This document shows, piece after piece, positions 3,221-24,747 of a DNA stretch of 64,000 nucleotides; position 1 is the stretch's first letter, and every line of letters starts with the position of its first letter. This DNA is from Lysobacterales bacterium (GTDB lineage: Bacteria; Pseudomonadota; Gammaproteobacteria; Xanthomonadales; SZUA-36). The position numbers were made by a program, and so were the translations under genes. The stretch lies in contig JANQPM010000119.1 in NCBI GenBank assembly GCA_028289465.1, positions 1-64,000 of the forward strand, read 5' to 3'. The notes beneath the pieces were generated by a model that saw only the letters and a program-made list of their open reading frames with translations, was not told the DNA's origin and did not search any database.

Positions 3221-4374
3221 TGGCCTCGCTGTCTCTGCAAATCGTCGACACGGTGCAGGCCATCGAGCCGTCACTGTGGCGGCGGCTGGCGGCGGACGAC
3301 GATCCATTGTGGAGCTGGCAGTTTTTTGCACACATGGAATCCACCGGAGTCGGCCCTGACCGCTTCGAGTATTTGCTGGTTTACCGCCGCGGGGAACTGG
3401 CTGCGATCATGCCCGCATTTATGTTCCGCCACTATCCGCTGGAACTGAGCAGTGGGCCGCTGTGGATGGCCCTCAGCCGCCGAATACGTGGCTGGTGGCC
3501 CGGATTCTTCTCCATTCCGGTTTATTTCTGCGGTCATCCGATGGCGCAGGGCAGGCTGTTGCGGTCAGCGTCCGGCAGCGAACACGAGATTGCGTACATC
3601 CGACAGCAGGCGCGGGCCAGAGCCGACCTGCTGGGCTATAACTGGTTGGTATTTAAGGATTTCCGGCCCAGTGCGGTCAGCCGGGTCCTGGCCGACAAGC
3701 ATTGCCTCGGTATTCCGGCATTGCCGGATGCGGTTCTGGAGTTACCGGTGACGGATTTCGAGGCCTATTTACGGGCTATCAAACCCAAGGCCAGGCGCAA
3801 TATCCGCGCGAAACAACGGCACTTCGAGCGCCACAACGGGTTCTCGATGGACGTGCAGTCTTGGCCGGACGATCTGGCGGGCGCTGCGCGGCGGCTGTAT
3901 CTGCAGGTTCTGCGGCGGGCGCCGACCCGGCTGGATGTCTTGAGCGATGCGTTTTTTGACCACCTGTCGGCAGTGCCCGGCCTGCAGTTGAAGACGGTTA
4001 CCGTGCGCGAGGCCAAAAAACCGGTTGCGTTTGCGCTTTTTCTGTTTCACGGCACGCAGGGTTACTGCCTTCGGGTCGGGATGGACTACGAGCGGATAAA
4101 ATCGAGCATGGCGTATTTCGTCATGCACTACCAGGTCATCAAGCTGGCGATAGAAAACCGCTGCCGCCAGTTGAATTTCTGCCAGACCACCTACCACTTC
4201 AAGCGGGAACTGGGCTGCCGGATGATGCGGCAGGATTTCATCGTCAGCCATCGCAACCGGATGGTTCAGGCGCTGCTGCCACGGGTTCTGCCGAGTCTGT
4301 TTTCGCACTATCGCAAGCGCAACGGCTTCACCGGTGCTTATCATGATGGTGCCTACCATGATGCTGTCGCCTAA
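3220..4374 (+). CDS. FemAB/CelD-like GNAT-fold acyltransferase
   Basis: 384 aa. The open frame extends upstream, but homology-like sequence begins at MASLSLQIVD and this ATG overlaps the mini-ORF stop. The C-terminal half carries the double-GNAT signature of the Acetyltransf_6 (BioF2/CelD, FemAB-like) type: LRAIKPKARRNIRAKQRHFE, then VAFALFLFHGTQGYCLRVGMDYERIKSSMAYFVMHYQVIKLAIE, then LNFCQTTYHFKRELGC (shown as pieces). Such proteins move acyl or aminoacyl groups to lipids, polysaccharides or peptides. The end carries a 15-base tandem duplication (AYHDGAYHD) that also contains candidate start codons of the next gene. Substrate unknown; the setting suggests acylation of the product of the P450 genes. 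Confidence 0.75.
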   Translation: MASLSLQIVDTVQAIEPSLWRRLAADDDPLWSWQFFAHMESTGVGPDRFEYLLVYRRGELAAIMPAFMFRHYPLELSSGPLWMALSRRIRGWWPGFFSIPVYFCGHPMAQGRLLRSASGSEHEIAYIRQQARARADLLGYNWLVFKDFRPSAVSRVLADKHCLGIPALPDAVLELPVTDFEAYLRAIKPKARRNIRAKQRHFERHNGFSMDVQSWPDDLAGAARRLYLQVLRRAPTRLDVLSDAFFDHLSAVPGLQLKTVTVREAKKPVAFALFLFHGTQGYCLRVGMDYERIKSSMAYFVMHYQVIKLAIENRCRQLNFCQTTYHFKRELGCRMMRQDFIVSHRNRMVQALLPRVLPSLFSHYRKRNGFTGAYHDGAYHDAVA

Positions 4375-5740
4375 GCCCGTCGCCGTCAGCCGGTCGTGGC
4401 AGCGGATCCGGTTTCCGTGGTGGCGGCTGCTGGGTTCCGCCAGGGCCAACGACTGGGTGGAAGTACTGCAGCGCCACCGGCCTGCCGGCGGCGACTACCT
4501 GTGCTTCGGTCCGCCCGGTCCGGCGAAGATCTACATCGTCTGCAATCCGGATGCGATTCAGCGGATATTCGCTGACCAGTCCGGTCTGTATTGCCGAGGC
4601 GAACCCCGTTGGACGCCGCTGCGCCGGGTACTGGGCGATGGCCTGATCACCGCGGACGGCGAGCGGCATCGACGCAATCGGCGGGTATTGGCAAAGCTGT
4701 TCAAGGCAGACTGGCTGCAGCAGCAGGCACAGCATGTCCAGGTATTTACCGAGCAGTGGATCAGTCGCTGGCGCGAGGCCGCCGGCAGCACCGTGGATGT
4801 CCATGAGGAAATGATTCTGATCACGCTGAAATGCATCGGCAAAATGCTGTTCAATATCTCGTTTGAGGAAGAGCTGCGCTTCGGTCGAATCTTCAAGAAC
4901 CTCAATGCCCTGACCAACCGAATCGACGTCGCGGTGTTCAGCCTGGTGCCTTGGCTTCCGGTTCGAGTGAATCGGACGCTCAAACACGGGATTCGCGAAA
5001 TCGACGCGTACATCGGCCAGATGATTTGGCAGCACCGGGAACGGAACGCGCCGGCCGCCGCCGATGCACTGGACTATCTGCTGTCGGTTCAGGCCGAGGC
5101 CGGCTGGGACGACCGGCAATTGCGCGACGAATTGGTCACGCTGTTCGGTGCCGGGCACGAAAGCGTTGCAGCAGCGCTGACCTGGAGCTGGTACCTGCTG
5201 GATCGTTATCCGGACATTGCCGACCGGGTGCGCCGGGAAGCGGACCGGGTACTCACGCAGGACCGGCCGGCCTATGAACAACTGCAGCACCTGGTGTATA
5301 CCCGCCAGGTACTTCGCGAATCCATGCGGCTGTATCCGCCGGTCTGGTTCAACGGCCGCAAGACCACCCGGGCGACGGAGATCGACGGGCACCCGCTGCC
5401 GGCCGGCGCCCGGGTCTGGCTGCTGCCGTTTCTGGTTCACCGCGATCCGCGCTGGTTTCCGCAACCGACGGTCATGTGCCCGCAGCGCTTTGATCAATCC
5501 TCGAACCTCGCGTTTAACGCCAAAGCCTATTTCCCTTTCGGCAAAGGTGCGCGCATGTGTCTCGGGCATTTCTTCGCAGAAATGGAGGCAACCCTGATTC
5601 TGGCCGGCCTGGCCCGCCATTTTCGGCTGCATCGTACGAACCGGACAGAGCCCCGCCTGAACGCCGGCACCACGCTTTATCCGCGCGGCGGTATGCCGAT
5701 GACCGTGATGCCGCACCCGCAGGAAGCGCCATGCAGTTAA
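4334..5740 (+). CDS. Cytochrome P450 (first of tandem pair)
   Basis: Up to 468 aa. Several starts are possible (GTG 4334; ATG 4343, 4346, 4358, 4361), all overlapping the previous gene. The I-helix reads FGAGHESVAAALTW (Ser where Thr is usual in the oxygen-activating position), the K-helix ExxR is VLRESMRLYPPVW, and the haem loop is FPFGKGARMCLGHF with the axial Cys. There is no N-terminal membrane anchor, so it is a soluble bacterial P450. No ferredoxin or reductase gene lies nearby, so electrons must come from elsewhere. It shares layout and many motifs with the next gene and probably arose by duplication. Confidence 0.93.
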   Translation: MLIMMVPTMMLSPKPVAVSRSWQRIRFPWWRLLGSARANDWVEVLQRHRPAGGDYLCFGPPGPAKIYIVCNPDAIQRIFADQSGLYCRGEPRWTPLRRVLGDGLITADGERHRRNRRVLAKLFKADWLQQQAQHVQVFTEQWISRWREAAGSTVDVHEEMILITLKCIGKMLFNISFEEELRFGRIFKNLNALTNRIDVAVFSLVPWLPVRVNRTLKHGIREIDAYIGQMIWQHRERNAPAAADALDYLLSVQAEAGWDDRQLRDELVTLFGAGHESVAAALTWSWYLLDRYPDIADRVRREADRVLTQDRPAYEQLQHLVYTRQVLRESMRLYPPVWFNGRKTTRATEIDGHPLPAGARVWLLPFLVHRDPRWFPQPTVMCPQRFDQSSNLAFNAKAYFPFGKGARMCLGHFFAEMEATLILAGLARHFRLHRTNRTEPRLNAGTTLYPRGGMPMTVMPHPQEAPCS

Positions 5741-7134
5741 ATCAGGCAGATAAAAGCGTTTCCGCGCCAACCGGAGGCCGCCGCAGGTGGCGGACCTATT
5801 CGGTCGACTGGCGGCAATGCCTGCGGCATGGCCTTCGCGGTTCGCTGATTCAACAGCTCACCCGCGCCAAGCAGCAGCATGGCGACTATTTACGAATCCG
5901 TCTGTTCGGGCCGCTGGGGTTTTATGTACTGACCGATCCGGAAAGCATCGCCCATGTCATGGTCAAGAACCAGAAAAACTACATTCGCGGCGAACCGCCT
6001 TGGACCCATCTACGGCGCGGGCTGGGCAACGGTCTGGTCACCTCGGACGGGGACATCCACCGCGAGCACCGGAAAATCGTAATGCAGTGCTTTACACGCG
6101 CCAAGATTGCCGAATACGGGCGCTTCGTCGAGCAGGCGGTGGCGCACCTGCGCCAGGACTGGCAGTCTGTGGCAGGCCGGACCGCAGATGTGCATGAAGC
6201 GATGGTCTCGCATACGCTGTTGATCATTGGCCGGGTGCTGTTCGGGCTGGATTTATCCGACCAGGTGATCAGTCTGATGCGGGCCAGCCAGCAGGTAAAC
6301 CACGCTGCGACCACCATTGATCTAAGTCTGCTTGGCCGGGCCGGATTTATACCGACGCGGACGGTCAGACGCTTGAATCGAGCGGTTAAGCGCCTGGATG
6401 CGCTGCTCTACGGGATGATCCATGTCCGTCGGGCCGAGGGTGCCGACGGAGCCGATGTATTGTCCGCGCTGCTGCGCTGTCAGGCCGCCAACCAAGACAA
6501 CCCGAATTCACACCAGCGCCTGTCGGACAAAGACATCCGTGACGAACTGGCGACGCTGTTCGGCGCCGGGCATGAGACTTCAGCCTGCATGCTGAGCTGG
6601 ACCTGGTTGCTGCTTTCTCAGAATCCCAAGGTAAGGCAGCGCCTGCAGGCCGAACTAAAACGGGTTCTGAACGGCCGTGATCCCCGCGTGGAAGATGTAC
6701 CGAAACTGGTCTACACGGCTCAGGTATTGAAAGAATCCATGCGTATTTACCCGCCGGTATGGATCAACGGGCGGCAGGCGGTCGAGGAGGACTGGGTCAA
6801 CGGTCGCAGAGTTGCACCCGGCATGATGATGTGGATACCCTCCTATCTGGTCCACCACGACGCGCGCTGGTATCCGCAGCCCGAACGGTTCCTGCCGGAA
6901 CGTTTTCAGGACAACACGCCGTCCCCCACCGATTTTCGCTATTTTCCGTTCGGCGGCGGGTCGCGCCTTTGCGTCGGCGGCGGCTTTGCGATGATGGAAG
7001 GGATTCTGACGCTGGCCGGCGTGGCGCAGCATTTTAATCTGGGGTATGCCGGCAACCAGCCGGTCCAGCCGTATCCCCTGGTCAGTCTGACTCCGCGAGG
7101 CGGCATGCCGATGCGGATCGACGCGGTGAGCTGA
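5731..7134 (+). CDS. Cytochrome P450 (second of tandem pair)
   Basis: 467 aa from the ATG that overlaps the upstream stop by 10 bases; the open frame goes further back but only through the upstream gene. The I-helix is FGAGHETSACMLSW with the usual acid-Thr pair, ExxR is VLKESMRIYPPVW, and the haem loop is FPFGGGSRLCVGGGF. The YPPVW(F/I)NGR segment and the RGEPPWTHLRRGLGNGL region are shared with the first P450, which points to related substrates. Both probably hydroxylate a hydrophobic molecule shared with the di-iron enzyme and SDR downstream. Confidence 0.93.
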   Translation: MQLNQADKSVSAPTGGRRRWRTYSVDWRQCLRHGLRGSLIQQLTRAKQQHGDYLRIRLFGPLGFYVLTDPESIAHVMVKNQKNYIRGEPPWTHLRRGLGNGLVTSDGDIHREHRKIVMQCFTRAKIAEYGRFVEQAVAHLRQDWQSVAGRTADVHEAMVSHTLLIIGRVLFGLDLSDQVISLMRASQQVNHAATTIDLSLLGRAGFIPTRTVRRLNRAVKRLDALLYGMIHVRRAEGADGADVLSALLRCQAANQDNPNSHQRLSDKDIRDELATLFGAGHETSACMLSWTWLLLSQNPKVRQRLQAELKRVLNGRDPRVEDVPKLVYTAQVLKESMRIYPPVWINGRQAVEEDWVNGRRVAPGMMMWIPSYLVHHDARWYPQPERFLPERFQDNTPSPTDFRYFPFGGGSRLCVGGGFAMMEGILTLAGVAQHFNLGYAGNQPVQPYPLVSLTPRGGMPMRIDAVS

Positions 7135-7135
7135 T

Positions 7136-7981
7136 ATGCGATCCGATCACTGGTTAAACGGCAAAACGGCGGTGATTACCGGTGCTGCCGGCGGGCTGGG
7201 TCGGGCCCTGGCCGAGGCTGCGGCCGTCGCCGGGGCCAATGTAGAGCTGGTTGATATCGACCGAACCGGGCTGGAAACCACGGCAGCGCAGATCGGAAAA
7301 CGGGGTGGCCGGTGTCAATCGCTGGTTGCGGATCTGGGCTCCGTACGCGATATCGAACACCTGGCTGCCGCTGTCGCAGAGCGTCATCGCCAAGTGGATT
7401 TGTTGATCAATAATGCGGGCTTTTGCATCAGCGGCGATCTGCTCGCGCAGTCGCCCGAGGAAATCGAACGCATTACCCGGGTCAATCAGATGGCGGTGGT
7501 CTACGGTTGCCGCGCTTTCGCGCCGTTGCTGATGAAGTCGCGCCGGGCCCAGGTAGTCAACATTTCCAGTGCGCTGGGCTTGATTGGCGCTGCGTCGCAG
7601 ACCACCTACAGCATGACGAAATTTGCCGTTCGCGGTTTCAGCGAAGCCCTGCGCAGCGAATGGAGGGCGCTGGGTATCGGCGTGACCACGGTATTCCCAG
7701 GTGCAATCAATTCCAATATCGTGCGCAACACGGTTCAGGCCGAACCCCTGTCTGCGGCCGAGCAGCGTTTTGTGCAGCGCTACTTTGAGGTATGGGGCAT
7801 CAGCACCGCCAAAGCCGCCACGAAGATACTGCGCGGTGCGAGCCGCAATGCAGCAAGGGTGCGCATTACCTCAGAGGCCTTTTTGATCGACTGGGCTGCC
7901 CGGCTGATGCCGGGGGGCCTGCAATATCTGGCAGCCTGGTCGCGCGATGTCTATCGCCGGCGCTGGCGGGGGGCACGCTGA
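7136..7981 (+). CDS. Short-chain dehydrogenase/reductase
   Basis: 281 aa. Rossmann nucleotide site TGAAGGLG at about residue 16, NNAG at about 92, catalytic Ser in NISSALG, and YSMTK supplying Tyr and Lys. The Asp after the second strand (VDIDRTG) favours NAD(H) over NADP(H). The ATG follows the P450 stop by one base, so translation is coupled. In this setting it would oxidise an alcohol made by a P450 or reduce a ketone before methylation. The C-terminal 60 residues (VRITSEAFLIDWAARLMPGG) resemble SDRs acting on lipid or hydrophobic substrates. Confidence 0.92.
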   Translation: MRSDHWLNGKTAVITGAAGGLGRALAEAAAVAGANVELVDIDRTGLETTAAQIGKRGGRCQSLVADLGSVRDIEHLAAAVAERHRQVDLLINNAGFCISGDLLAQSPEEIERITRVNQMAVVYGCRAFAPLLMKSRRAQVVNISSALGLIGAASQTTYSMTKFAVRGFSEALRSEWRALGIGVTTVFPGAINSNIVRNTVQAEPLSAAEQRFVQRYFEVWGISTAKAATKILRGASRNAARVRITSEAFLIDWAARLMPGGLQYLAAWSRDVYRRRWRGAR

Positions 7982-7982
7982 T

Positions 7983-8648
7983 ATGAGGCCATCGGTCAGT
8001 ATCACCGAACCCGGCGCGACCTTGCATCCGCATTACAATCCGGCCGCACCACGCACTTTGGGAGCCGCATTCAGGCTGTTTGCCAGACAGCCATCGCCGC
8101 GCCGGCTGATGGTTGGCGCCGCGCTGGCGCTGCTGTGGCGTTTCTATCTCGGCCTGCCGGGTTGGGCCGATCTGGCGCTGGCCGCCGGTATCGTGATTTA
8201 CTGGCCACTGCAGGAATGGGCAGTGCACCGCTACCTGCTGCATATGAAACCCGTCACGGTGCGCGGCCGGTCCGTATTGCCGATTCAGGTACGAAACCAC
8301 CAACTGCATCATCGAGATCCGTGGCGCCTGGATGTGCTGTTCATCTATAAAGGGGCGTTCAAATACGCGTTGCCGGTGATTGTCGGCCTGTTCTGGCTAT
8401 TGACCAGGGACTGGCCGTTGACGGCCACCGGTGTCGGGGCGTATTTACTGGTGCTGCTGCGCTACGAATGGACCCATTACCTGACCCACACCCCGTATCA
8501 GCCGCGCAGCCGCTGGTATCGAAAACGTTATCTGAACCATCGGCGGCACCACTTTCTCGATGAGCAGCGCATGTTCGGCGTGACCGCGCTGGTTATGGAC
8601 AAGGCGCTCGGAACCGCCGGCTCGAAGCTTCGGCGGCCCGCTGACTGA
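7983..8648 (+). CDS. Fatty acid hydroxylase/sterol desaturase family protein
   Basis: 221 aa starting at the ATG one base after the SDR stop (a longer in-frame start at 7947 lies inside the SDR). Four histidine clusters of the membrane di-iron family are present: HRYLLH, HQLHH, HYLTH and HRRHH. Hydrophobic stretches flank them. Enzymes of this family hydroxylate or desaturate fatty acyl chains, sterols or carotenoids. HRRHHFLDEQRMFGVT near the end is typical of the fatty acid hydroxylase type. It is part of the coupled set with two P450s, so the pathway product is probably a multiply oxidised lipid or terpenoid. Confidence 0.88.
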   Translation: MRPSVSITEPGATLHPHYNPAAPRTLGAAFRLFARQPSPRRLMVGAALALLWRFYLGLPGWADLALAAGIVIYWPLQEWAVHRYLLHMKPVTVRGRSVLPIQVRNHQLHHRDPWRLDVLFIYKGAFKYALPVIVGLFWLLTRDWPLTATGVGAYLLVLLRYEWTHYLTHTPYQPRSRWYRKRYLNHRRHHFLDEQRMFGVTALVMDKALGTAGSKLRRPAD

Positions 8649-8650
8649 CC

Positions 8651-9484
8651 GTGTTGTTATCGCTGTACGACAAACTGGTAGACCGCCTGCTGCGCGTTAA
8701 GGGCTACCGCACCTGGGTCTGGCGCATCTGGTACCCGTATCTGACCCGGCTGACGCAGGACGCCGATATCACCTTTCTCAACTATGCGTTACAGCCGGCG
8801 CCTCCGCATCAGCCGCTGCAATTGCAGGAAAAAGACGAAGACGACCGGCTGTGTATCAATCTCTACCACCATGTGCTCGCCGGCCAGTCGATTGCCGGTC
8901 GCACGGTACTGGAAGTGAGCTGCGGCCACGGTGGCGGGGCTTCCTATTTGTGCCGCTACTGGCGCCCCGAGCTCTACGTTGCGGTGGACCTGAATCGCAA
9001 CGGCGTTGCATTTTGCGCCCGGCGCCACGATTGTGCCGGGCTTGAGTTCACTGTCGGCAACGCACAGGCGCTGCCGTTTCCGAAAGCGGTTTTCGACCGT
9101 ATCATCAATGTGGAGGCTTCCCACTGTTATGCCGATTTTCGCGGATTTCTGAAGCAGGTTTGGCAGAGGCTGCGGCCTGGCGGCTATTTCCTGTATGCCG
9201 ATTTCCGGCCGGAGAAAGAACTGCCGGACTGGGAACGGACGCTGACCGATACCGGATTTCGGATCGTGCGGCAGCAGGATATTACCGATTCGGTGGTTCA
9301 AGGCATGCGCGCCAACAGCCGAAGATACCGGCGGTTGATCAAGCGCTGTTTTCCGTTCGGGCTGCGCTGGCTGGCGCGTCTTTTCAGCGGTATCGAAGGT
9401 TCCCGAATCTATCATGCGATGAACCGGCGCGAGCTGGTTTACCGCTCCTACTGTCTGCTCAAGCCGCGACGCGCAGGTGATTAG
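8651..9484 (+). CDS. Methyltransferase, phthiotriolone-methyltransferase-like
   Basis: 277 aa, GTG start two bases after the previous stop. SAM motif I is VLEVSCGHGGGASYL, the acidic end of strand 2 is VAVDLNRNGV, and later motifs are INVEASHCY and LRPGGYFLYADFRP. These strings, the N-terminal WRIWYPYLTRL and the C-terminal SRIYHAM...YRSYCLLKP are recognisably those of the mycobacterial phthiotriolone/phenolphthiotriolone dimycocerosate methyltransferase (Rv2952 type), which O-methylates a hydroxyl on a long-chain lipid. I infer O-methylation of a lipid-like alcohol. Recall of the family is from memory, not a search. Confidence 0.85.
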   Translation: MLLSLYDKLVDRLLRVKGYRTWVWRIWYPYLTRLTQDADITFLNYALQPAPPHQPLQLQEKDEDDRLCINLYHHVLAGQSIAGRTVLEVSCGHGGGASYLCRYWRPELYVAVDLNRNGVAFCARRHDCAGLEFTVGNAQALPFPKAVFDRIINVEASHCYADFRGFLKQVWQRLRPGGYFLYADFRPEKELPDWERTLTDTGFRIVRQQDITDSVVQGMRANSRRYRRLIKRCFPFGLRWLARLFSGIEGSRIYHAMNRRELVYRSYCLLKPRRAGD

Positions 9485-9505: not shown

Positions 9506-10759
9506 TCAATTTCTTAGGCGCTGCTGAATATCATCGAGCAGCCGTCCCCACGGTTTTAGTCGTTGCAGACTTTCGGGCAGTTCGTCGATCGCGTGCCTGG
9601 CCGACTCGATATCCTCGTAGACACCGTAAATCAGCGACAGCAGACGTTGTTCGTCGCGCTTGATTCGGTACATGGCCATTCGACCTTCGAGGCCATATCG
9701 GTCGATAAAATTCATAATGCCGATGGCATCGGTCATCACTGCGAGTTGAAGGGTATAGTGGTCCGGGTTCTGCTGCATGATCCAGTTTACGCCCTGTAGT
9801 GAGAACGGCGGTTTGCTGCCTGATTCGTTGCTGCCCGTCTCAAGACCACTCTTTCCTGGATTGCCCGGCTCAGCCAGTGCGACCGCACGGCTGCCGGCGG
9901 GCTTAACAGTTTCGCCGACCGGCACCGGTGCCGAATCCGGCGGACTGGTGGCCTCAGCGTCTGCCAACGGTGCGGGATCGGATAGCCTTGTGTTTTCGCC
10001 GGCTGCGACCCGTTCGGGAACGGGTGGCTTTGTAGTCTCGCCGGCTGCGATCGCCGCCGGCTCCGGCGGGGTTGCGACCGGTACGGGGCCGCCTGGCTTC
10101 GCAGTCTCGCTGGACGTTACCGATACCGAATCGGAGGGTATGTTTTGAGAATCGAAGATTTCCTTTGCCCGCCGGTGTCCGCGCTGGGCCGCCATCCGGT
10201 ACCAGCGCATGGCTTCGACCCGGTCCCTTTTCACGCCACGGCCCAGAAAGTAGTGCGTGCCCAGATTGTATTGCGCGCTGGGCAGGCCCTGGTCGGCTGC
10301 CTTACGCCACCAGCGGATCGCTTCCTGGTCGTTCACCGCAACACCGTTACCCCGGGCGTAAGCATTACCCAGATTGAATTGGGCGGCCGGCAGGCCTTGC
10401 AGGGCTGCCAATTGATACCAGTAAACTGACTGAATATAGTTCTGCTCGACGCCTTGTCCTCGTTCGTAGATCAAACCGACCCCGAACTGGGCACGGGCGT
10501 CGCCGGCTTCCGCCAGCGGCAACCAGTGGGTCAAAGCCTGCCGGTGATCGCCCGCGTCGAATGCCCGGCGTCCGTCGCTGAATCCGTCCGCGGACGCAGT
10601 GGCGGCCATGCACCAGAGCAGGAAGGCCATGCAGCCCAGCCAGCGCCGGCAGGTTTGCCGGGCACGGCGTTTGCCACAATTGCGTTTGATAGGATTACGC
10701 TTGATCGGGTCGCGTCTGATGAGGCCGTGCTCTATGGGATAACCGTGCAGGACCCTCAC
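9506..10759 (-). CDS. Sel1-repeat protein with C-terminal SPOR-like domain
   Basis: Up to 417 aa from GTG 10759, two bases after the radical SAM stop. The stretch before the signal peptide is odd (a 5-residue repeat PIKRN) and ATG 10630 (MAFLLWCMAATASA) could be the true start. Sel1 repeats follow (GDARAQFGVGLIYERGQGV, LPAAQFNLGNAYARGNGV, LPSAQYNLGTHYFLGRGV, HRRAKEIF), then a Pro/Ala/Gly-rich linker of about 110 residues with about five imperfect copies of a GETxKPPxP-type unit, then a SPOR-like fold (HYTLQLAVMT...RLLSLIYGVYEDIESARHAI). This predicts a periplasmic, peptidoglycan-associated scaffold. Its place at the end of the peptide-modification operon is unusual. Confidence 0.8.
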   Translation of the reverse strand: MRVLHGYPIEHGLIRRDPIKRNPIKRNCGKRRARQTCRRWLGCMAFLLWCMAATASADGFSDGRRAFDAGDHRQALTHWLPLAEAGDARAQFGVGLIYERGQGVEQNYIQSVYWYQLAALQGLPAAQFNLGNAYARGNGVAVNDQEAIRWWRKAADQGLPSAQYNLGTHYFLGRGVKRDRVEAMRWYRMAAQRGHRRAKEIFDSQNIPSDSVSVTSSETAKPGGPVPVATPPEPAAIAAGETTKPPVPERVAAGENTRLSDPAPLADAEATSPPDSAPVPVGETVKPAGSRAVALAEPGNPGKSGLETGSNESGSKPPFSLQGVNWIMQQNPDHYTLQLAVMTDAIGIMNFIDRYGLEGRMAMYRIKRDEQRLLSLIYGVYEDIESARHAIDELPESLQRLKPWGRLLDDIQQRLRN

Positions 10760-10761
10760 GG

Positions 10762-11925
10762 TCAGGAAGCGCTCTCGAATGTCCGGTCTTTCCCACGGTC
10801 TTTCTTGGCGCGCTTGAACAGCCGATCGTTGAGTTTTGCCTGCGGGTGTATGCTGAGCGCATCGCCGGTGACGAGCTCGGCAGTCCCCATGCAGTAGTTT
10901 TCCATTCCGTTGGCCAGCGCCTGGTCCCGGGCGGTAAAGGCCAGTTCGCGAATTGCCTTGAGCGCTTCAGCATGGTTCCAGATTCGATCGATCGAATGTT
11001 CATGAAGGTTGCCGACCAGCCGCCGGAATTGCACGCAGGGGTAGACATTGCCGAACGGGTCTATGGCCAGGTTGGTCGATCCGGCACCGCAGTTTTTCAG
11101 CCGGCGCCCGGTCTGTATGGCCTGGCCATGGTCCGATTTGGGGTCCGGGTTGCGGTCCGGGTCACGATTTGGGCTTTGTTCGAATGATGCGTTTTTGCCG
11201 ACAACATTGACGGTCAGCGTTTTTTCCTGCTGTGCGCGTGTCTTCTCCGCCGCGCGCATCGCATGCTGTATCGTCAGCCGGTACATGTTTTCAATGCCGG
11301 CCGGGCTCGCGGTCAGTTGCACCGGGCCGGTATCGCCGTTATCGCGGGGGGTGATGACCGGGTCGAACTGAATCGGGCAATCCAACTCGTCGGCCAACGC
11401 GAGCATGGCTTCCACTTCGTGCTCGTTGTAGCGGGTCAGCGCACTGTTGATTTTTACCCGCATGCCGAGCGACCGCAGGGTTCTAATGTTGCCGATCAGG
11501 CGCTTGAAACTGCCATTCTGCAAGGTTTGCCGGTCGTGGGTTTTCGCGCACGCGCCATGCAGGCTGGTCTCGATCTGCCACGGATCCACCTCGCGTTTCA
11601 GGCGTTCCGCATTGCGCCGGTTCAGCGGCAGCGCGTTGCTCTTAACGGTGATCGAGAAACCCTTGTCCCGGGCGTAGCTTGCGACCTCGTAGAAGTGTGG
11701 ATAGATCAACGGCTCGCCGCCGGTGAAGGAAACGCTGAGCGTACCCATCTGCACCAGATCGTCCAGCAATCGCCGGTAGTGTTCCGGCGTCAGGCGCTTG
11801 CCGGCCAGGTTCAGGTCGTTGTAACAGAACTGGCACTTGAGATTGCACTGATAGGTCAGCTCCAGCAGCACCGATACCAGATGGTTGCGCTCGCGCGCAC
11901 TGGCCATTAGCCGATGGAAGCTCAT
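10762..11925 (-). CDS. Radical SAM peptide-modifying enzyme candidate
   Basis: 387 aa. The SAM-cluster motif CNLKCQFC is at residues 27-34, followed by SFTGGEPL (GGE motif) and VKSNA. The C-terminal part has CGAGSTNLAIDPFGNVYPCV, a SPASM/twitch-like auxiliary region, with a further Cys in NYCMG. Between them is an expanded loop with a 12-base DNA repeat (NPDRNPDPKSD). The ATG overlaps the PqqD stop (ATGA). With a PqqD-like recognition protein, an HprK-like kinase, a peptidase, an exporter and a precursor-like ORF, the likely role is post-translational modification of a ribosomal peptide. Chemistry (thioether, C-C link, epimerisation) cannot be told from sequence. Confidence 0.85.
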   Translation of the reverse strand: MSFHRLMASARERNHLVSVLLELTYQCNLKCQFCYNDLNLAGKRLTPEHYRRLLDDLVQMGTLSVSFTGGEPLIYPHFYEVASYARDKGFSITVKSNALPLNRRNAERLKREVDPWQIETSLHGACAKTHDRQTLQNGSFKRLIGNIRTLRSLGMRVKINSALTRYNEHEVEAMLALADELDCPIQFDPVITPRDNGDTGPVQLTASPAGIENMYRLTIQHAMRAAEKTRAQQEKTLTVNVVGKNASFEQSPNRDPDRNPDPKSDHGQAIQTGRRLKNCGAGSTNLAIDPFGNVYPCVQFRRLVGNLHEHSIDRIWNHAEALKAIRELAFTARDQALANGMENYCMGTAELVTGDALSIHPQAKLNDRLFKRAKKDRGKDRTFESAS

Positions 11926-12206
11926 CGCTGCACAGCCTCGCCGCTGAGCAAGATACCCTCATCCGCCAGTTCGGCAACAAATGAACGGATATCGCGAACC
12001 AGCTCATTTTCGCTGACTGCATATTGCGGTTTCATGCGGTGGATGATCTGTGCAACCGAACGCTGCCCGTCGCACAGCTCGAGAAATGTCAGCCCCACCT
12101 CATTGATCACCATCACTTCGGCGCGGTCCTGGTGGATCAGCACGCCTTCGTCAAAGACGCGCCGAAAGCGAATTTTCGGTTCAAGCCGCCAAATCTGTTC
12201 CATCAT
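11922..12206 (-). CDS. PqqD-family peptide chaperone
   Basis: 94 aa from the double ATG at 12206/12203; a TTG at 12218 would add four residues, but the GAGAAG upstream is better placed for the ATG. The body matches the PqqD winged-helix fold: LEPKIRFRRVFDEGVLIHQD, then VMVINEVGLTFLELCDGQRSVAQIIHRM, then ELVRDIRSFVAELADEGIL (given in pieces). PqqD proteins (RiPP recognition elements) bind the leader of a precursor peptide and present it to the radical SAM enzyme encoded next. Its start lies 14 bases after the kinase stop and its stop overlaps the next start, so the order is clearly operonic. Confidence 0.88.
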   Translation of the reverse strand: MMEQIWRLEPKIRFRRVFDEGVLIHQDRAEVMVINEVGLTFLELCDGQRSVAQIIHRMKPQYAVSENELVRDIRSFVAELADEGILLSGEAVQR

Positions 12207-12219
12207 CTTACTTCTCAAC

Positions 12220-13125
12220 TTAGCAGATCAGGTCCAAGAAGTGCGCATCTTTGGAGAAATACAGGCGCCCGACAACCCCTGTATCAGCGACGGTTTGTAG
12301 CACATCCATCAGGCGTTCACGGCGCAGCGGGTCCTGGTTTACAAAAGGTGCGCTGCCCATCAGCAGGCTGACGGCTTCGGCTGGCGAGGCCACCGCGATG
12401 CGGTTTTCCCGGTCTTTTTGCAGCCGCAACAGCCGATGAACCGGATAGTTCAGGCCGGCGCCGGTGCTGTCGCCGACCGATCCGCAAAACGGCAGCTTCT
12501 CGGCGCGCCAGTTCCCGTTATGCGAAACCAGTGCGTTGATATCGTCGCTAAGCACCGGACAGCCCTGTGCCATTGCAAAACGGCTGGCCGTGGATTTTCC
12601 GGCCCCCGAGTGCCCGAACAGAATCGTGGCACCGCCGCCCTTGACGATCGCGGCGGAGTGCAGCAGGACCCCGCCTCGGTACAACAGGTCATAAGCGGTG
12701 ATCAGGCGCAGTGCGTTTTCCAGCATCCCGGCAAAATAGGGCCCGCCCTGCGGATCGCAGATCAAGTCCATGCCGAGGCGCTCCTCCAGATGTAGGATGC
12801 CGCTGCACCAGTCCGATGTATAGGCAACGGACTTCGCTTGAAAGTCCAGCGAAGAGGTCTCGTTCAGGTCGTGGCCCTGCGGCTCGGGCCGAGGCAGTTG
12901 TCCGGGGTCGGCAAGCTGAATCCGCAGCGCGTTGGCCGACGGGCCAGCCGGCAAATGCGGCAGCCGGTATTCGGCCAGTTTTGCCGGTACGGCGGCTTGC
13001 CAGGATTCCGGAATTCCGGAAATTCGGCAGGCCCGCCCTGCGAGTCGCAGGCACAGGTCGCCATTGACCGGCGCTGTTGTCCGAGCCGGGAAGTCAGTCG
13101 CAGACCTGGCGGGCAGCGGACTCAT
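12220..13125 (-). CDS. HprK-related serine kinase (HPr-rel type)
   Basis: 301 aa from the ATG that overlaps the peptidase stop (ATGA); the frame is open further upstream but that part is unlike the family. The C-terminal half holds the HPr kinase-like core: GVLLHSAAIVKGGGATILFG leading into the P-loop GHSGAGKST, then LSDDINALV. Stand-alone HprK-like proteins next to PqqD proteins are known in lasso peptide and HPr-rel gene sets, where some phosphorylate a precursor peptide on its last serine. No true HPr protein is encoded nearby. The precursor-like ORF at 13757 ends in Ser, which fits a peptide kinase role, but this is inference. Confidence 0.85.
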   Translation of the reverse strand: MSPLPARSATDFPARTTAPVNGDLCLRLAGRACRISGIPESWQAAVPAKLAEYRLPHLPAGPSANALRIQLADPGQLPRPEPQGHDLNETSSLDFQAKSVAYTSDWCSGILHLEERLGMDLICDPQGGPYFAGMLENALRLITAYDLLYRGGVLLHSAAIVKGGGATILFGHSGAGKSTASRFAMAQGCPVLSDDINALVSHNGNWRAEKLPFCGSVGDSTGAGLNYPVHRLLRLQKDRENRIAVASPAEAVSLLMGSAPFVNQDPLRRERLMDVLQTVADTGVVGRLYFSKDAHFLDLIC

Positions 13126-13562
13126 CCGCGCCTCAGCTTGCGGTATAGCAAATAACCGAACGCCTTGATGAATCGTACCGCGGCCCATGCGCGCCGGTAC
13201 AGGGGGTAACGCACGGGCACGCCGTCGATTGCGGTGACTTTGCCGAGAATTCTGTCGACGGAGAAAGGTGCATCCGGCCGCGCTTCGCGATCGGCCTGGG
13301 TAATAGCGATCCAGCCATGCCTGCCCGGAGAGAAGCCGAGCAGGCGATGGCTGACCATCCGCTGATCGCCGCGACCGAAAACGATAATATCGCCGGGCAG
13401 GTAAAAGCGCTGCCGGGCGAGCTGTACTCGACAGCCGTTGCGCAGCAGGTTTCCCATGCAGTTGCCGTTGACCTGTACGGTCAGGGGACCATCCTTGATC
13501 AGTTCGAAGGCGGCGTTGTAGAGCATCAGAGATAGCCAGTCGTATCCCAGCGGCACGAGCAT
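13122..13562 (-). CDS. S24/S26 signal-peptidase-like protein, Ser to Cys
   Basis: 146 aa. It follows the short S26 layout of the SipW/ER type: VQVNGNCMGNLLRNGCRVQL where VxGxSMxPxLxxGD is normal, then YLPGDIIVFGRGDQRMVSHRLLG with GD and the His that replaces Lys in this subgroup. The catalytic Ser is Cys (codon TGC on the minus strand, 13460-13458), and Pro of SMxP is Gly. Either it is a cysteine peptidase variant or it has lost catalysis and binds the precursor. It is the first gene of the minus-strand operon, and its stop overlaps the kinase start. No clear ribosome site is seen before the ATG. Confidence 0.75.
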   Translation of the reverse strand: MLVPLGYDWLSLMLYNAAFELIKDGPLTVQVNGNCMGNLLRNGCRVQLARQRFYLPGDIIVFGRGDQRMVSHRLLGFSPGRHGWIAITQADREARPDAPFSVDRILGKVTAIDGVPVRYPLYRRAWAAVRFIKAFGYLLYRKLRRG

Positions 13563-13674
13563 ACGCGAACGGGCGAGGCAAGAAAAGCGAGTAGCGGTGC
13601 CGCAACACCATGAACGGCTTTCCGATCTGACGTGAAAAGCGCTGGTCGATTCGGCCTGCTGGGTTTGTGGGAGC

Positions 13675-13702
13675 TTGTAAAATTTCCGCCTTTTAGCATA
13701 AT
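13675..13702 (+). promoter_or_regulatory. Possible sigma-70 promoter of precursor ORF
   Basis: TTGTAA and CATAAT are separated by 16 bases in an AT-rich stretch, about 55 bases before the precursor ATG. Four and five of six bases match consensus. No experimental support. Confidence 0.4.
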
Positions 13703-13756
13703 CTTATAAGGTCGGTGAGATATGCCAAGTTCACTTTCGTATAAATCGGGAGCGCG

Positions 13757-13990
13757 ATGAATACCAGCTCTGGGAACATAAACTCCGGGAAAACTGATTC
13801 AGGCTCAGATAGCGACCGCAAACAACCTGAAGATTCTTTAAAGCGGTATGAAAAACCGCGCATCGTCAGCCGCGAGCGGCTGGAGTCGGTTGCCGCGGTT
13901 TGCAGCGGACCCAATTCCAAGGAAACCGGTCAGTTCGACAGCACCGGCGTTACGCTATGCGGTGCCAATGGCGGCCAAATCAGGTCCTAA
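13757..13990 (+). CDS. Candidate RiPP precursor peptide
   Basis: 77 aa, ATG preceded by GGGAGCG. The N-terminal 25 residues are polar and low-complexity (15-base DNA repeat at 13766-13810). Then comes KRYEKPRIVSRERLESVAAVC, in which the Y-x-K-P-x-I...LE.VA..C pattern is the usual leader/core border of precursors found next to PqqD and radical SAM genes. The rest is small and polar with two Cys in total (at about 49 and 68), Gly/Asn rich, ending GGQIRS. It lies alone on the plus strand, between the exporter and the peptidase, convergent with the exporter. The last residue Ser is a possible target of the HprK-like kinase. No exact family is recognised. Confidence 0.7.
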   Translation: MNTSSGNINSGKTDSGSDSDRKQPEDSLKRYEKPRIVSRERLESVAAVCSGPNSKETGQFDSTGVTLCGANGGQIRS

Positions 13991-14029
13991 CCCTAATCAG
14001 ACCTTGCCCGCATACCGGTCACAAGGAGT

Positions 14030-15706
14030 TTAGTCACCGATCACCTCGTCTTGCACCAGACGCCCCGCTTCCAGCCTCAGCAGGCGGTTCAGGTGTTTAA
14101 TCACTTTGTCGCTGTGAGTGACCACAATGACGGTCTTCTCGGCGTATTCCTGTTCCAGCATGCGTAAGAATTCCGCCTGTGCCGTGTCGTCCAGCATTCG
14201 CGTGGGTTCGTCGAACAACACGAGTTGAGACGACGGACGCAGCAGAGCACGGGCCAGAATAATCCGCTGTATCTGTCCTCCGGAAAGCTTCAGGCCCTGC
14301 GCGCCGGCGAGCGTGTCATAGCCGTCCGGCAAGGATCGGACCATTGCGTCCACGCCGGCTTTCCGGGCGCATTCCATGACGGCGTCCTGTTCCGCGCCGA
14401 GGTTCCCGTAGCGGATGTTCTCCAGAATGCTCCGGTTCCCGAGCAACGGGTTTTGCGGGACCAGGGTGATGTGCTCGCGCAGCAAACGCCGGTCCAGCCG
14501 AGACCAGTCCTGGTCATTCCAGAACAGCATGCCGGGCGCGATTCGGTCCATACCCAGCATCAGGTTGATCAGCGTGGTTTTACCGGCTCCGTTGGGGCCG
14601 GTCAGGGCTATTTTCTCGCCGTGGCGGATCGTCAAATTGATATCCTGCAGCACCGGGTTGCCCGGTCGGTAGCCAAAGTTCAAACGCTGCACTTCGATAC
14701 GGCGCAGCGGCCGGGCGGGCGCCGCCGCGTCGCCGGTATCGGTTTCCTTCGGCTGGTTAAGAAAGTCTGATAGCCGGTCGGCGGCGGCGACCCCTTGCCG
14801 GCCCTGGCCGATCAGATTGGCGAGCTGACCGAGCTGACGCAATAGCAGTAGTGCGAAAACGGCTGCAGGCAGCATCGTTTCCAGGCGCACGGATTGTGCT
14901 CGGACCTGCCGATACAACAGCCACGCAGCGATCCCGAACAGCAGAATACCGGCGATCTGTGTCATTGAAGCCAGCCACAAGCGCTGCATGCGTTCCCGCC
15001 TGCTGCCGCTGACGATAGCCTGTTGCAGCCCGCGGTAGCGCGATCGGAAAAAGTCGCCCAGGCCGTAAGCCTTTACCGTGCCGATCTGCAACAGACTGCT
15101 TTCCACCAGGCTGTGAGCCAGCGCATGTTGATCCAGCAACTGCCGGGCGGTGGTGTGGAAGCGGCGGCTGGCCCGCCACAGCAGCAGGCCTGCTGCCGTA
15201 ATCAGCAGTAAAGCGCCCGGTGCGGCCGACGGATAGTAGTGAAACAGTCCCGCCGTTGCACCGAGCAAAAAGGCCGCCGTGGTCACCAAGGATGGCAGTA
15301 CGCCGGTGAAAAGCTGGCTCGCGCGGTAAGTATCCATTGCCATTGCAGCCAGCAGTTTTGCCGGACTCCGCGCCCGGTGCACGGACATTTCGGCCTCCAG
15401 TGCATGCCGGTATTGCAGCAGGCGGAATTCAGCGTTCAAACGATCGCTGATACGTGCCGACCATTCATTGGCGAACGCATGCAGGGCCAGCGAGACCAGC
15501 AGCATACCAAGCACTACCGGCAGCGTGATTTTGACGTCCGCTGCAGACGCCTGTAGCTGCGCTACCAGGTAACCCAGCAGTACCGGAATGCTCAAGGTTG
15601 CCACGACAGCGAGAACCGCAACCGCGGACGCACCGAACAACGGCCGCAACCCGCGGCGGACAATTGCCGAAAGCGAGGGGTGCCATCGCTTAAACAAGTG
15701 ATTCAC
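14030..15706 (-). CDS. ABC transporter, fused permease and ATPase
   Basis: 558 aa, GTG start. About six membrane helices fill residues 20-300, then an ATPase domain: Walker A TGPNGAGKTT, Q-loop in VPQNPLLG, signature LSGGQ, Walker B QLVLFDEPT, and the switch His in VVTHSDK. There is no C39 peptidase domain. By its place beside the precursor and modification genes it is the likely exporter of the modified peptide, or gives self-immunity. It is separated from the peptidase-kinase operon by the plus-strand precursor ORF, so it needs its own promoter upstream of 15706. Confidence 0.88.
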   Translation of the reverse strand: MNHLFKRWHPSLSAIVRRGLRPLFGASAVAVLAVVATLSIPVLLGYLVAQLQASAADVKITLPVVLGMLLVSLALHAFANEWSARISDRLNAEFRLLQYRHALEAEMSVHRARSPAKLLAAMAMDTYRASQLFTGVLPSLVTTAAFLLGATAGLFHYYPSAAPGALLLITAAGLLLWRASRRFHTTARQLLDQHALAHSLVESSLLQIGTVKAYGLGDFFRSRYRGLQQAIVSGSRRERMQRLWLASMTQIAGILLFGIAAWLLYRQVRAQSVRLETMLPAAVFALLLLRQLGQLANLIGQGRQGVAAADRLSDFLNQPKETDTGDAAAPARPLRRIEVQRLNFGYRPGNPVLQDINLTIRHGEKIALTGPNGAGKTTLINLMLGMDRIAPGMLFWNDQDWSRLDRRLLREHITLVPQNPLLGNRSILENIRYGNLGAEQDAVMECARKAGVDAMVRSLPDGYDTLAGAQGLKLSGGQIQRIILARALLRPSSQLVLFDEPTRMLDDTAQAEFLRMLEQEYAEKTVIVVTHSDKVIKHLNRLLRLEAGRLVQDEVIGD

Positions 15707-15854: not shown

Positions 15855-17933
15855 ATGGTGAAATACTCAATTCTAGTGCTGATGGTGAGCGCCATCAGTT
15901 CGGGAGTGTCGGCTCAGGACAATAGCTACAGGGATGTTGAGTATGATCTTAGGCAAGGTCTGGAGCTGCGAGAAGTTGCGCGACGGGCACACGCCAATGC
16001 CGAGGGGTATTGGGATGAAAAACCGCCGTCAGATTATTCCGGAACCGATTATCCTGGAACCGACCAAAACTTGTCCGCCTATGAAGCCGTAGACGAAATC
16101 TACAACCGGGCACGGGCTGCCCAGGGCAACCCGAAGCTGGATTCTCAAGCCTTGGACATTATTCATGTCGCAACCAGCGTCATCGATGCGTGGCCGCAGT
16201 GCGAAGACAGCTATGGCGCCATCAAGCGGGCCGTCGAAATAATGCCCCGCCGCGCCCCCGAACTGGTCGCGCAGGTTGCGGCCAACGGCAATTGCAAGTG
16301 CTCCGGCGCCGGGCTGTGGCCGCCGCAGCGGATCGAAACCCGAATGCGTTCGGATTTACGTCATGCATTGCTGGATGTACCGTCCGCCTGCGCCTGCTCG
16401 CAGACCGCCATGCTGGCCGGAGTTGCCGGCCTGCCTGAGAACGACGCTTACGCCGATGCCGCGACGGATGAAGAGCGCACCAACATCGCCAATGCGATGG
16501 CTGAACGCGTTCAGGAGATCGTCAACCAGACAATATCGGAGCAAAGCCGGAACGGCTGGGAATGCGCCTGCGTGGACATCAATATCGCGTCAACGATGCA
16601 GGCGATCGGCGCGGAAGGCCTGCAAGAGAGCGTATATACGAATCTGGCAGAGAAATATGCTAAAGCAGGCGGCGCCAGCCTGGTCGTGGATTCCTTTGGC
16701 GTTGTCGGCTGGTATCCGGATTTAGCCTGGGGCAAGGAGAGCTATATAAGCCGGGACAATGTGCTGCGCCGCAATGCGTCCGTTTACCGGGGTGACCGTC
16801 TGGTTCTCGATCCGTTCACGCCACGTACCGAATTCTACGGCCTTGAGGATGGCTCCTATGAGGGTTTCGGCCAGCATCAGATAACGTCGACCCAGATACC
16901 GACCGACATCATTATTTCCGAATACGCGGAAGGCTGGAATCAGAAATCGCTGGCTTTGCCTGAGGGCCAGCGGGACCCTGACGAGCGCAATCGCGCCATC
17001 GAGATTTACAACGGTTCGGGCAAGCCCATTGACCTGGGGCAGCGCCAGTATTTTGTCGAGATCTATGGAAAACCGGGTAAGCCTGGGCCGGTGTTGGCAG
17101 CGACCGGTACCAATGACACCGGTTCGGCTGAAGAGACAAGCCTGGTTAAAAACCGCGTGACCCTGGATTCGATAACGACATTTAAGCTGGACAGCTATGA
17201 ATTATCAGCCGATGCCAAAACGGCATTGGATGGACTGGCCGCTACGCTGGGCTCGGTGGAGCTGGCCAGTGAAATACTGGTGGTTGGGCACACCTGTTCC
17301 CTGGCTTCGGACGAATACAATGCCGTGCTGTCGGAAAATCGTGCCCGTTCGGTACGTGACTATCTGGTCGCAAGAGGCATCGACCCGGCCCGGCTTCGTA
17401 TTGAGGGACGCGGCGAAAGCGAGCCGGCTTTTTCCAACGCCACCGAGGAGTCGAGGCGCCGCAACCGCCGGGTTGAAGTCGATTTCGTGACTCAGCAGGA
17501 AGTCCGGCATGAGGTGCTTGCCGATGCACCGACCCCGGTAAGCGGCTGGGAGGCCGACTCGGTAGTCGTTGCCACTGACGAAGTCGGATACGGCAGTGCC
17601 GATACGCCGCGTCAGGTACTCACGCTGACCGGTGTTGTGGAACCGGGAAAAACCTTGGTCATTGCGTACAGCAAGTCGGATGACGCGCTGATCGAGCAAG
17701 CCGACATAGTGACGGACAAGCTGAACTTCGGGCCTAATGAATCATTGGCGATGCGCCGCGACGGCAATCCGACCATGTGCGAAGCCAGCGGGTACGCTTT
17801 CGTTAAGGACTACGACATCGACAGCGTCAGAAACCTGCAGCCCAGCCCGCCGTTTGTACCGGTTACCGGACCAATCACCGCGGATCCGGGTAAAACCGGG
17901 CCCAGAGGCGGCGACAAGGCCAGCCCCAACTGA
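15855..17933 (+). CDS. Secreted OmpA-domain protein with split lamin-tail-like domain
   Basis: 692 aa with signal peptide (MVKYSILVLMVSAISSGVSAQ). Residues about 20-330 are a helical, Cys-containing region (CKCSGAG, CACSQT, CACVD) that I do not recognise. At about 352-415 a lamin-tail-like start appears (IIISEYAEG...NRAIEIYNGSGKPIDLG). An OmpA peptidoglycan-binding domain occupies about 435-541 (VGHTCSLASDEYN, LSENRARSVRDYLVARGI, RRRNRRVEVDF). The other half of the lamin-tail-like fold appears to resume at about 560-640 (RQVLTLTGVVEPGKTLVIAY, LNFGPNESLAMRRDG). Probably an envelope protein tethering an extracellular or periplasmic domain to peptidoglycan. A 15-base tandem duplication sits at 16032-16061. 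It follows its own AT-rich upstream region. Confidence 0.75.
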   Translation: MVKYSILVLMVSAISSGVSAQDNSYRDVEYDLRQGLELREVARRAHANAEGYWDEKPPSDYSGTDYPGTDQNLSAYEAVDEIYNRARAAQGNPKLDSQALDIIHVATSVIDAWPQCEDSYGAIKRAVEIMPRRAPELVAQVAANGNCKCSGAGLWPPQRIETRMRSDLRHALLDVPSACACSQTAMLAGVAGLPENDAYADAATDEERTNIANAMAERVQEIVNQTISEQSRNGWECACVDINIASTMQAIGAEGLQESVYTNLAEKYAKAGGASLVVDSFGVVGWYPDLAWGKESYISRDNVLRRNASVYRGDRLVLDPFTPRTEFYGLEDGSYEGFGQHQITSTQIPTDIIISEYAEGWNQKSLALPEGQRDPDERNRAIEIYNGSGKPIDLGQRQYFVEIYGKPGKPGPVLAATGTNDTGSAEETSLVKNRVTLDSITTFKLDSYELSADAKTALDGLAATLGSVELASEILVVGHTCSLASDEYNAVLSENRARSVRDYLVARGIDPARLRIEGRGESEPAFSNATEESRRRNRRVEVDFVTQQEVRHEVLADAPTPVSGWEADSVVVATDEVGYGSADTPRQVLTLTGVVEPGKTLVIAYSKSDDALIEQADIVTDKLNFGPNESLAMRRDGNPTMCEASGYAFVKDYDIDSVRNLQPSPPFVPVTGPITADPGKTGPRGGDKASPN

Positions 17934-23778: not shown

Positions 23779-24747
23779 ATGCCGAATCGCAAAAGCACCA
23801 ACAGCGAAGCAAGCCGGGCAAGCACCGAAATACTGGTCGACGCAGTATTTCGGAATCGGCCAAGGCGGCAGCACCTGGAACTGATGGCGGACGAGGCGGT
23901 CTGGAAGGAGCTCGATCATCATCAGTCGCTGGCCACGCTGGCTTTTCAGTTTGAGAACATCGAACCCGGCACCGATGCGCAGCGGCGGATTCGCCAGCGC
24001 CTGAAAGCGCTGGTCATCAAATACGCCGGCCAGCAGATGGTCTGGGCGGAGGGCCTCGAACGGATTGAACAGGCGCTTGCCGACAGGTCCATACGGTTTT
24101 TGTACCTGAAAGGATGGGCTGCCGCGCAGACCGTCTATCCGCAGCCGTGGATGCGCATGATGACCGATGTCGATATCTTCGTGGATCCGGCGCGCCTGGA
24201 CGATGCACTGGACGTTCTGCATGTTCTCGGCTACCGGAACTACTTTCCGCCCAGAGGCAGAATCACCCGCAGCCAGTATATGTATGCCAAAGCCCTGAAA
24301 CCCGGGGTGGACCTGGTGATCGACCTGCATTTCCGAATCAGCAACCACCCGCGGTACTGGGCCGTATTTGATTTCGACCGGGTATGGACAGACCGGCAGC
24401 AACGGCGTGGACTGACCCGTCTGTCCGACCGCGAGTTCCTGTTTCATGCCAATAACCACGCATCGCTAAAAGGTATCGTGGATTCCGTCTTTCAGGAGAT
24501 GGCGGATTGGTTCTTCCTTTGCCCGGCACGGCCAAGTGAGCCGGCCCGGTACCTGGATTTTTTGCAACCGAAACTGCAGCAGCTCACCGACCGGCGCCGC
24601 AGCGTTACCCCGCAATTGCTGTTCGGCAGCTACAACAAGGCAAAACACCGGGTGTTCCTGGACCGCTTTTCTTCGCTGCCCAATAACCGTACCCGGTTTC
24701 TGTACCTCAAGGAACTGGTCTTCGGCGGCCGACCGAGGCAGCAGTAG
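23779..24747 (+). CDS. Nucleotidyltransferase family protein (NTP_transf_5)
   Basis: 322 aa. The key stretch FLYLKGWAAAQTVYPQPWMRMMTDVDIFVDPARLDDA (about residues 111-150; K-G at the start and D-x-D-x-F-V at the end) is that of the uncharacterised nucleotidyltransferase family PF14907, and NNHASLKG lies further on. No substrate is known for the family, which is seen in exopolysaccharide and HPr-rel loci. Here it is 8 bases after the epimerase in the same operon. It may activate a sugar or modify a protein of the assembly machine. Confidence 0.8.
   Translation: MPNRKSTNSEASRASTEILVDAVFRNRPRRQHLELMADEAVWKELDHHQSLATLAFQFENIEPGTDAQRRIRQRLKALVIKYAGQQMVWAEGLERIEQALADRSIRFLYLKGWAAAQTVYPQPWMRMMTDVDIFVDPARLDDALDVLHVLGYRNYFPPRGRITRSQYMYAKALKPGVDLVIDLHFRISNHPRYWAVFDFDRVWTDRQQRRGLTRLSDREFLFHANNHASLKGIVDSVFQEMADWFFLCPARPSEPARYLDFLQPKLQQLTDRRRSVTPQLLFGSYNKAKHRVFLDRFSSLPNNRTRFLYLKELVFGGRPRQQ

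Follow-up and report, generated by a model that had tools for sequence, protein, structure and literature searches.

We find that the 64,000-nucleotide stretch of a Lysobacterales genome analysed here (hereafter the window; contig JANQPM010000119.1, positions 1 to 64,000) carries a RiPP cassette in which a 77-aa precursor ORF stands beside genes for a Cys-type S26-like peptidase, an HprK-like kinase, a PqqD-type protein and a radical SAM enzyme, and that in homologous loci of several phyla the precursor gene mostly lies directly downstream of a gene for a secreted C25 peptidase. The most fitting classification of the cassette is a new radical-SAM RiPP variant that has tailoring of the lasso type. 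We believe, with a probability of roughly 0.6 for the scheme as a whole, that the peptide is modified with the help of PqqD and the radical SAM enzyme, phosphorylated on a Ser, relieved of its leader, exported, and finally acts together with the C25 peptidase. Each catalytic step and the order of the steps we infer from knowledge of the enzyme families combined with conserved motifs (this applies to modification, phosphorylation, leader removal and export), and the joint action with C25 from gene linkage. The cassette adds a radical SAM peptide family with a very strict core signature from little-studied phyla, and it would unite lasso-type C-terminal Ser phosphorylation with radical SAM chemistry, which have hitherto been separate.

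On the minus strand, the genes are transcribed in the order S26-like peptidase, kinase, PqqD, radical SAM and Sel1-SPOR, with the 77-aa ORF divergent from the peptidase gene and a minus-strand ABC exporter gene beyond it (Table 1). When the ORFs were rechecked, all coordinates and frames given by an earlier sequence-only reading of this DNA proved correct, as did its ATGA overlaps between the kinase and peptidase genes and between the PqqD and radical SAM genes. Its gap of 14 bases between kinase and PqqD is about right, the distance being 13-16 bases with an ATG start and about 1 base with an upstream TTG, and its 2-base gap from radical SAM to Sel1-SPOR is true given a GTG start of the latter.

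Table 1. Positions of the cassette genes and of further genes discussed in the text, with the evidence for each assignment.
Feature	Position in window	Strand	Evidence
Sel1-SPOR gene	10759-9506	-	Pfam: Sel1 3e-33; SPOR 0.003, under its cut-off
Radical SAM/SPASM maturase gene	11925-10762	-	Pfam: PF04055 1e-21; SPASM 3.5e-9
PqqD gene	12218-11922	-	Pfam: PF05402 1.6e-14
HprK/PEPCK-fold kinase gene	13125-12220	-	H156, K177, D194, D195; fold search
S26-like peptidase gene	13562-13122	-	Cys at nucleophile (GNCM), conserved His (SHR)
RiPP precursor ORF, 77 aa	13757-13990	+	26-member family beside homologous maturases
ABC exporter without peptidase domain	15706-14030	-	PF00005/PF00664; ABC 3e-27
OmpA/lamin-tail-domain secreted protein	15855-17933	+	PF00691
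NTP_transf_5 nucleotidyltransferase	23779-24747	+	PF14907 7e-27
Secreted C25 (gingipain/PorU-like) peptidase	52689-56567	+	PF01364 6e-62; cassette C25 profile score 464

First, the proposal that the 77-aa ORF encodes the precursor is borne out by homologues that stand beside homologous radical SAM genes in several phyla. A profile of the small ORF has members in 23 loci (E<=4e-12), every one of them next to a radical SAM gene, with the next-best unrelated score at 0.03, and in the genome searched the precursor is present as a single copy at E<=1e-6. For the close precursor pair from loci L022 and L023, the only informative one of three computed, dN/dS is 0.26. A chance frame beside unrelated enzymes might be suspected from the shortness of the ORF and from its position in the window on the strand opposite to the maturases; however, this idea is refuted by the homologous ORFs adjoining maturases in several phyla, because of which we regard the ORF as a real gene and give a chance origin a negligible probability. 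In the window, the leader ends in ...YEKPRIVSRERLESVAAV and the core is CSGPNSKETGQFDSTGVTLCGANGGQIRS, with two Cys, one Lys and a terminal Ser. When cores are counted from the first Cys to the C-terminus, all 26 precursors have exactly two Cys, exactly one Lys between them and Ser as the last residue. The residue before the Lys is usually Gly, Ala or Ser and the one after it is often small, and the Cys-Lys and Lys-Cys spacings differ widely, giving loops of 9-18 residues. The leader motif [YW]xxPx[ILVMF] occurs in 24 of the 26 precursors and has the spacing of the lasso YxxPxL motif, and as in lasso systems it is accompanied by a separate PqqD-type protein; YxxPxL is the motif that lasso B1 (PqqD-type) proteins require (PMC10368454). 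A search of NCBIfam with 23 family members gave no match at E<=1. The features generally expected of a RiPP locus, namely modifying enzymes and, genetically linked to them, a precursor whose leader and core are conserved, are all present.

Second, the leader and core are matched by enzymes that could act on them. The PqqD gene is the sole one in the genome and its product is predicted to be a leader-binding RRE, which would hold the leader via YxxPx(I/L) and thereby offer the core to the maturase. Exactly six Cys are invariant in the radical SAM enzyme across 22 homologues, arranged as CX3CX2C plus three at positions 279, 297 and 345; we read this as the pattern of one Twitch-like auxiliary cluster, without the CX2CX5CX3C stretch of a complete SPASM domain. 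This enzyme would modify the C...K...C segment, most likely by introducing a cross-link via one or both Cys; against a cross-link it can be said that a loop range of 9-18 residues is unusual for a fixed thioether, and a simple disulfide loop also fits. A radical SAM maturase working on a Cys-bearing core is also found in sactipeptide and ranthipeptide systems (AlbA, StsB, PapB), but our enzyme stays far below the cut-offs for these maturases (67.9 of 850 for AlbA, 93.2 of 625 for StsB and 69.5 of 340 for PapB), and the cassette differs from them by its three auxiliary Cys (Twitch-like) instead of a full SPASM domain, by the separate PqqD and by the kinase. In two loci, a tandem pair of PqqD-type genes lies between the kinase and radical SAM genes (L022:1713-2317 and L023:8759-9364).

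Third, the cassette encodes a kinase and a peptidase that have no Pfam match above cut-off, and for both we used AlphaFold models built with the homologues collected in this analysis. The kinase model (pLDDT 87.6) matches PEPCK/HprK structures with E-values from 5e-7 to 6e-4, and His156, Lys177 and Asp194 are present in 17/17 sequences, all of which have Asp or Glu at residue 195. Precedents for C-terminal Ser phosphorylation are the kinases PadeK and ThcoK, of which PadeK has the lasso precursor PadeA as its substrate. Mutation has shown that the His-Lys-Asp-Asp motif is essential in lasso kinases that add a phosphate to the C-terminal Ser hydroxyl of their precursor, and this Ser is extremely conserved in lasso clusters bearing such a kinase (PMC9266682). 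Both the motif in the kinase and the terminal Ser in the substrate are found in our family, the invariant Ser being what such a function predicts. The kinase is thus probably a C-terminal Ser kinase and would phosphorylate the Ser side chain as PadeK does on PadeA.

The best NCBIfam relative of the kinase is ScmC, which 14 of the 17 kinase members match, and SynChlorMet (ScmC-ScmF) likewise brings together an HprK-like ScmC relative, a PqqD homologue and radical SAM enzymes. Moreover, the YxxPx(L/I) leader, the separate PqqD and the HprK-like kinase with its His-Lys-Asp-Asp motif are shared with lasso clusters that bear a tailoring kinase and a nucleotidyltransferase, such as those of paeninodin, pseudomycoidin and BsfA, as are the C-terminal Ser and, in some loci, NTP_transf_5. 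Taken on their own, these likenesses would suit a form of SynChlorMet or a lasso variant that has lost its cyclase. However, the SynChlorMet model list holds two radical SAM enzymes as opposed to one in our cassette, and the scores for ScmC (32.5 of 125), ScmD (26.9 of 100), ScmE (65 of 400) and ScmF (71.6 of 400) are all far under their cut-offs. As for the lasso option, the whole genome (95% complete) gave no match to the lasso B2 leader protease (Transglut_core3, PF13471), Pfam detected no asparagine-synthetase-like cyclase among the window's cassette genes, and the precursor is without an NCBIfam match; features that set the cassette apart from lasso clusters are its radical SAM enzyme, its Cys-type S26 peptidase and a core with two Cys and one Lys. 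We therefore consider either origin improbable. The HPr-rel-A system is likewise distant, with 24.5 of the 200 bits set for HprK_rel_A. The claim of the sequence-only reading that no described class fits thus holds, the precursor lying outside curated families and the enzymes far under the cut-offs of the named classes. A search of the open-access literature yielded no description of a radical SAM enzyme, an HPr kinase, PqqD and a RiPP together, and no paper on SynChlorMet. By analogy, our variant may work much as the tailoring part does in those lasso pathways that have a kinase.

The AlphaFold model of the S26-like peptidase (pLDDT 89.4) matches signal peptidase and LexA structures at E 2e-4, in agreement with an S26/S24 fold. 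At the nucleophile of the GxSM position, 12 of the 13 homologues have Cys and the one from L029 has Ser, and a His-Arg pair is invariant in all 13 sequences; because of this combination the protein is likely a Cys-His peptidase. It is probably the leader peptidase of the cassette and would cut off the leader, presumably near the first Cys, before the modified peptide would be exported. The natural Ser-to-Cys exchange within an S26 peptidase is of interest for itself. In several loci with sufficient flank (L034, L048) an S26 gene was not seen. At L024:1-778, an extra S26-like peptidase gene and a second kinase gene cut by the contig end lie beside the cassette as a duplicated tailoring pair.

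The set of small ORF, PqqD, radical SAM enzyme, HprK-like kinase and Cys-type S26 peptidase, which the sequence-only reading had singled out as a RiPP cassette, was recovered in about 23 other loci. The kinase search among relatives led to a homologous locus in genome G018 (contig C54), where precursor, kinase, PqqD and radical SAM genes form a single run, and a class-wide search together with a radical SAM alignment scan of 84,980 genomes added more than 20 loci. The hosts belong to the Gammaproteobacteria (Thiolapillus, Competibacter, Sedimenticola, Thiodictyon and Thiocapsa), Acidobacteriota (including Thermoanaerobaculia) and Myxococcota, with one record labelled Deltaproteobacteria. Homologous loci that lack the small ORF or keep the genes apart had been named as evidence that would speak against the cassette, and it withstood this check: the small ORF adjoins the radical SAM gene on every contig that extends far enough, and at L039 and L043, which are without it, the radical SAM gene is close to the contig end. 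The cassette is rare, as a radical SAM gene at E<=1e-60 was found in 3 of 250 genomes of the window's order, including a more distant sibling type in G536, and in 1 of 398 genomes of a phylum sample. Its patchy spread suggests horizontal transfer. Sibling cassettes with a radical SAM enzyme, PqqD and an HprK-like kinase but different precursors were observed at L130:10331-12108, L047:2489-6501 and L048:693-3399; these precursors, among them ACGKVSTTQNSCRTNQKNS and AACGKTIGWPNAQCATAPGS, likewise combine a YxxP leader with a terminal Ser, and our precursor family may belong to a wider group.

Fourth, the most frequent extra gene at the homologous loci encodes a C25 peptidase. In 17 of 22 testable cases this gene immediately precedes the precursor gene in the same orientation, its end being a few to about 200 bases away, and L034 has two consecutive C25-precursor pairs. 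The encoded peptidases are about 1,000-1,860 aa long when complete, and their catalytic His and Cys dyad is conserved. The C25 gene of the window is separated from the precursor by 39 kb and lies at the distant end of the exopolysaccharide locus; its product groups with the cassette C25 proteins in a tree and is 42% identical to the C25 peptidase of L032. The partner peptidases share the C25 domain and the His-Cys dyad with PorU and the gingipains; in contrast to these, they are large secreted proteins of non-Bacteroidota whose genes directly precede that of a RiPP precursor. The genome has two more C25 genes, and no second precursor was found near either of them. Within the window's order, C25 occurs in 35 of 101 genomes as opposed to 2 of 101 for the precursor, and C25 genes in general were rejected as precursor carriers, because the surroundings of 29 further C25 genes from the order contained no member of the family. 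The linkage is one-way, from cassette to C25, because most C25 genes of the order stand without a precursor. It suggests that both products act jointly, and our search of the open-access literature found no description of C25 linked to such precursors. Neither C25 nor the invariant C-terminal Ser, the core of one Lys and two Cys or the single NTP_transf_5 gene had figured in the sequence-only reading. The linkage provides a testable functional hint of a kind that is absent for most orphan RiPP clusters.

How the peptide and the peptidase would work together can be read in several ways. The mature peptide could be a dedicated inhibitor or regulator of C25, the loop Lys entering the specificity pocket as in small loop inhibitors. 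In line with this, the single Lys within the Cys-Cys loop in 26/26 precursors has its preferred small neighbours, the genes are directly adjacent at most testable loci and paired one-to-one in L034, and family C25 includes Lys-gingipain. However, the closest solved relative of the window's C25 peptidase is the sortase PorU (E 2e-12), with the gingipains ranking behind, and the alignment to gingipains used to compare pocket residues is weak. In addition, the window's C25 gene is not adjacent to the precursor, and the one conserved Lys could equally well contact a protease or be what the radical SAM enzyme modifies; we consider a dedicated inhibitor or regulator unlikely. The PorU match would rather agree with a C25 peptidase that processes or couples the peptide, either by cutting at the Lys after export or by a PorU-sortase-like joining to a surface polymer, for example the neighbouring polysaccharide, given that two related genomes have the cassette within or next to an exopolysaccharide locus. 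This we judge on balance rather unlikely, since a leader peptidase candidate is already part of the cassette, polysaccharide surroundings were not seen for most loci outside this family, and there is no known acceptor. In our preferred scheme, the peptide would act outside the cell with the C25 peptidase that is encoded upstream in most relatives. Against the scheme count the 39-kb distance in the window, the C25 genes of relatives that lack the cassette, and the loci in which no S26 gene was seen. We tentatively add, as a possibility that we ourselves doubt, that the radical-SAM-modified and C-terminally phosphorylated peptide is a dedicated partner of the secreted gingipain/PorU-like peptidase, be it as inhibitor, activator or surface-coupled substrate, with the Lys of the Cys-Cys loop as contact residue. 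If this were true, the RiPP class would be defined through its protease partner. A C25 gene also stands directly before a lasso-type cluster with an asparagine-synthetase cyclase, a precursor with a LPYTAPLLSELGELRDIT leader, an HprK-like kinase and PqqD (L165:1-5756, on contig C5 of G052), and C25 may accompany kinase-bearing lasso clusters as well.

Finally, the neighbouring genes were compared across relatives. The Sel1-SPOR gene, which had been counted as a component, adjoins the cassette solely in the window and G018; outside these sister loci it was found only in exopolysaccharide loci of relatives without the cassette. In G005 and G006, it lies alongside metallophosphatase, O-antigen-ligase-like and Wzc-like genes, and kinase and precursor searches detected no cassette in either genome. 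We therefore reject its membership in the cassette and regard it as a mere neighbour that is part of the exopolysaccharide locus. Assignment of the ABC exporter to the cassette is weakly supported, with moderately similar exporters recurring only at G018:C106 and around some further loci; the gene is not constant across the cassette family, and the window's protein is possibly a peptide exporter, going by its sequence. NTP_transf_5 is present as a single copy in the genome, and the same family, which is presumably also that of PsmN, occurs beside the cassette in L022, L023 and L042. The nucleotidyltransferase PsmN of lasso clusters acts on phosphorylated Ser (PMC9266682), and the NTP_transf_5 gene could possibly, though this is uncertain, serve further tailoring of the phosphorylated Ser.

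Window and G018 alike have the cassette within or next to a polysaccharide locus with NusG/RfaH-like and MarR-like genes. The window's exopolysaccharide locus is large (20144-52068) and, along with these regulators, has sugar dehydrogenase, epimerase and Wza/Wzc-type export genes. A second cassette in G018 (L129:4647-6796, on contig C106) looks decayed: the N-terminal part of its radical SAM gene is missing and the remainder overlaps the precursor, PqqD and kinase were not seen, and a C25 fragment adjoins an HTH ORF. Pieces homologous to the OmpA/lamin-tail protein, with 38-41% identity, lie beside this second cassette, and the protein may belong to the locus in this lineage only. On the other side of the window's cassette, a run of genes at 4334-9484 encodes two cytochrome-P450-like proteins, a short-chain-dehydrogenase-like protein, a fatty acid hydroxylase-like protein and a methyltransferase, the P450 and dehydrogenase calls having been made by reading the translations. 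The methyltransferase is near the dimycocerosate methyltransferase model (304 bits, cut-off 300), and the run is possibly a lipid or natural-product cluster.
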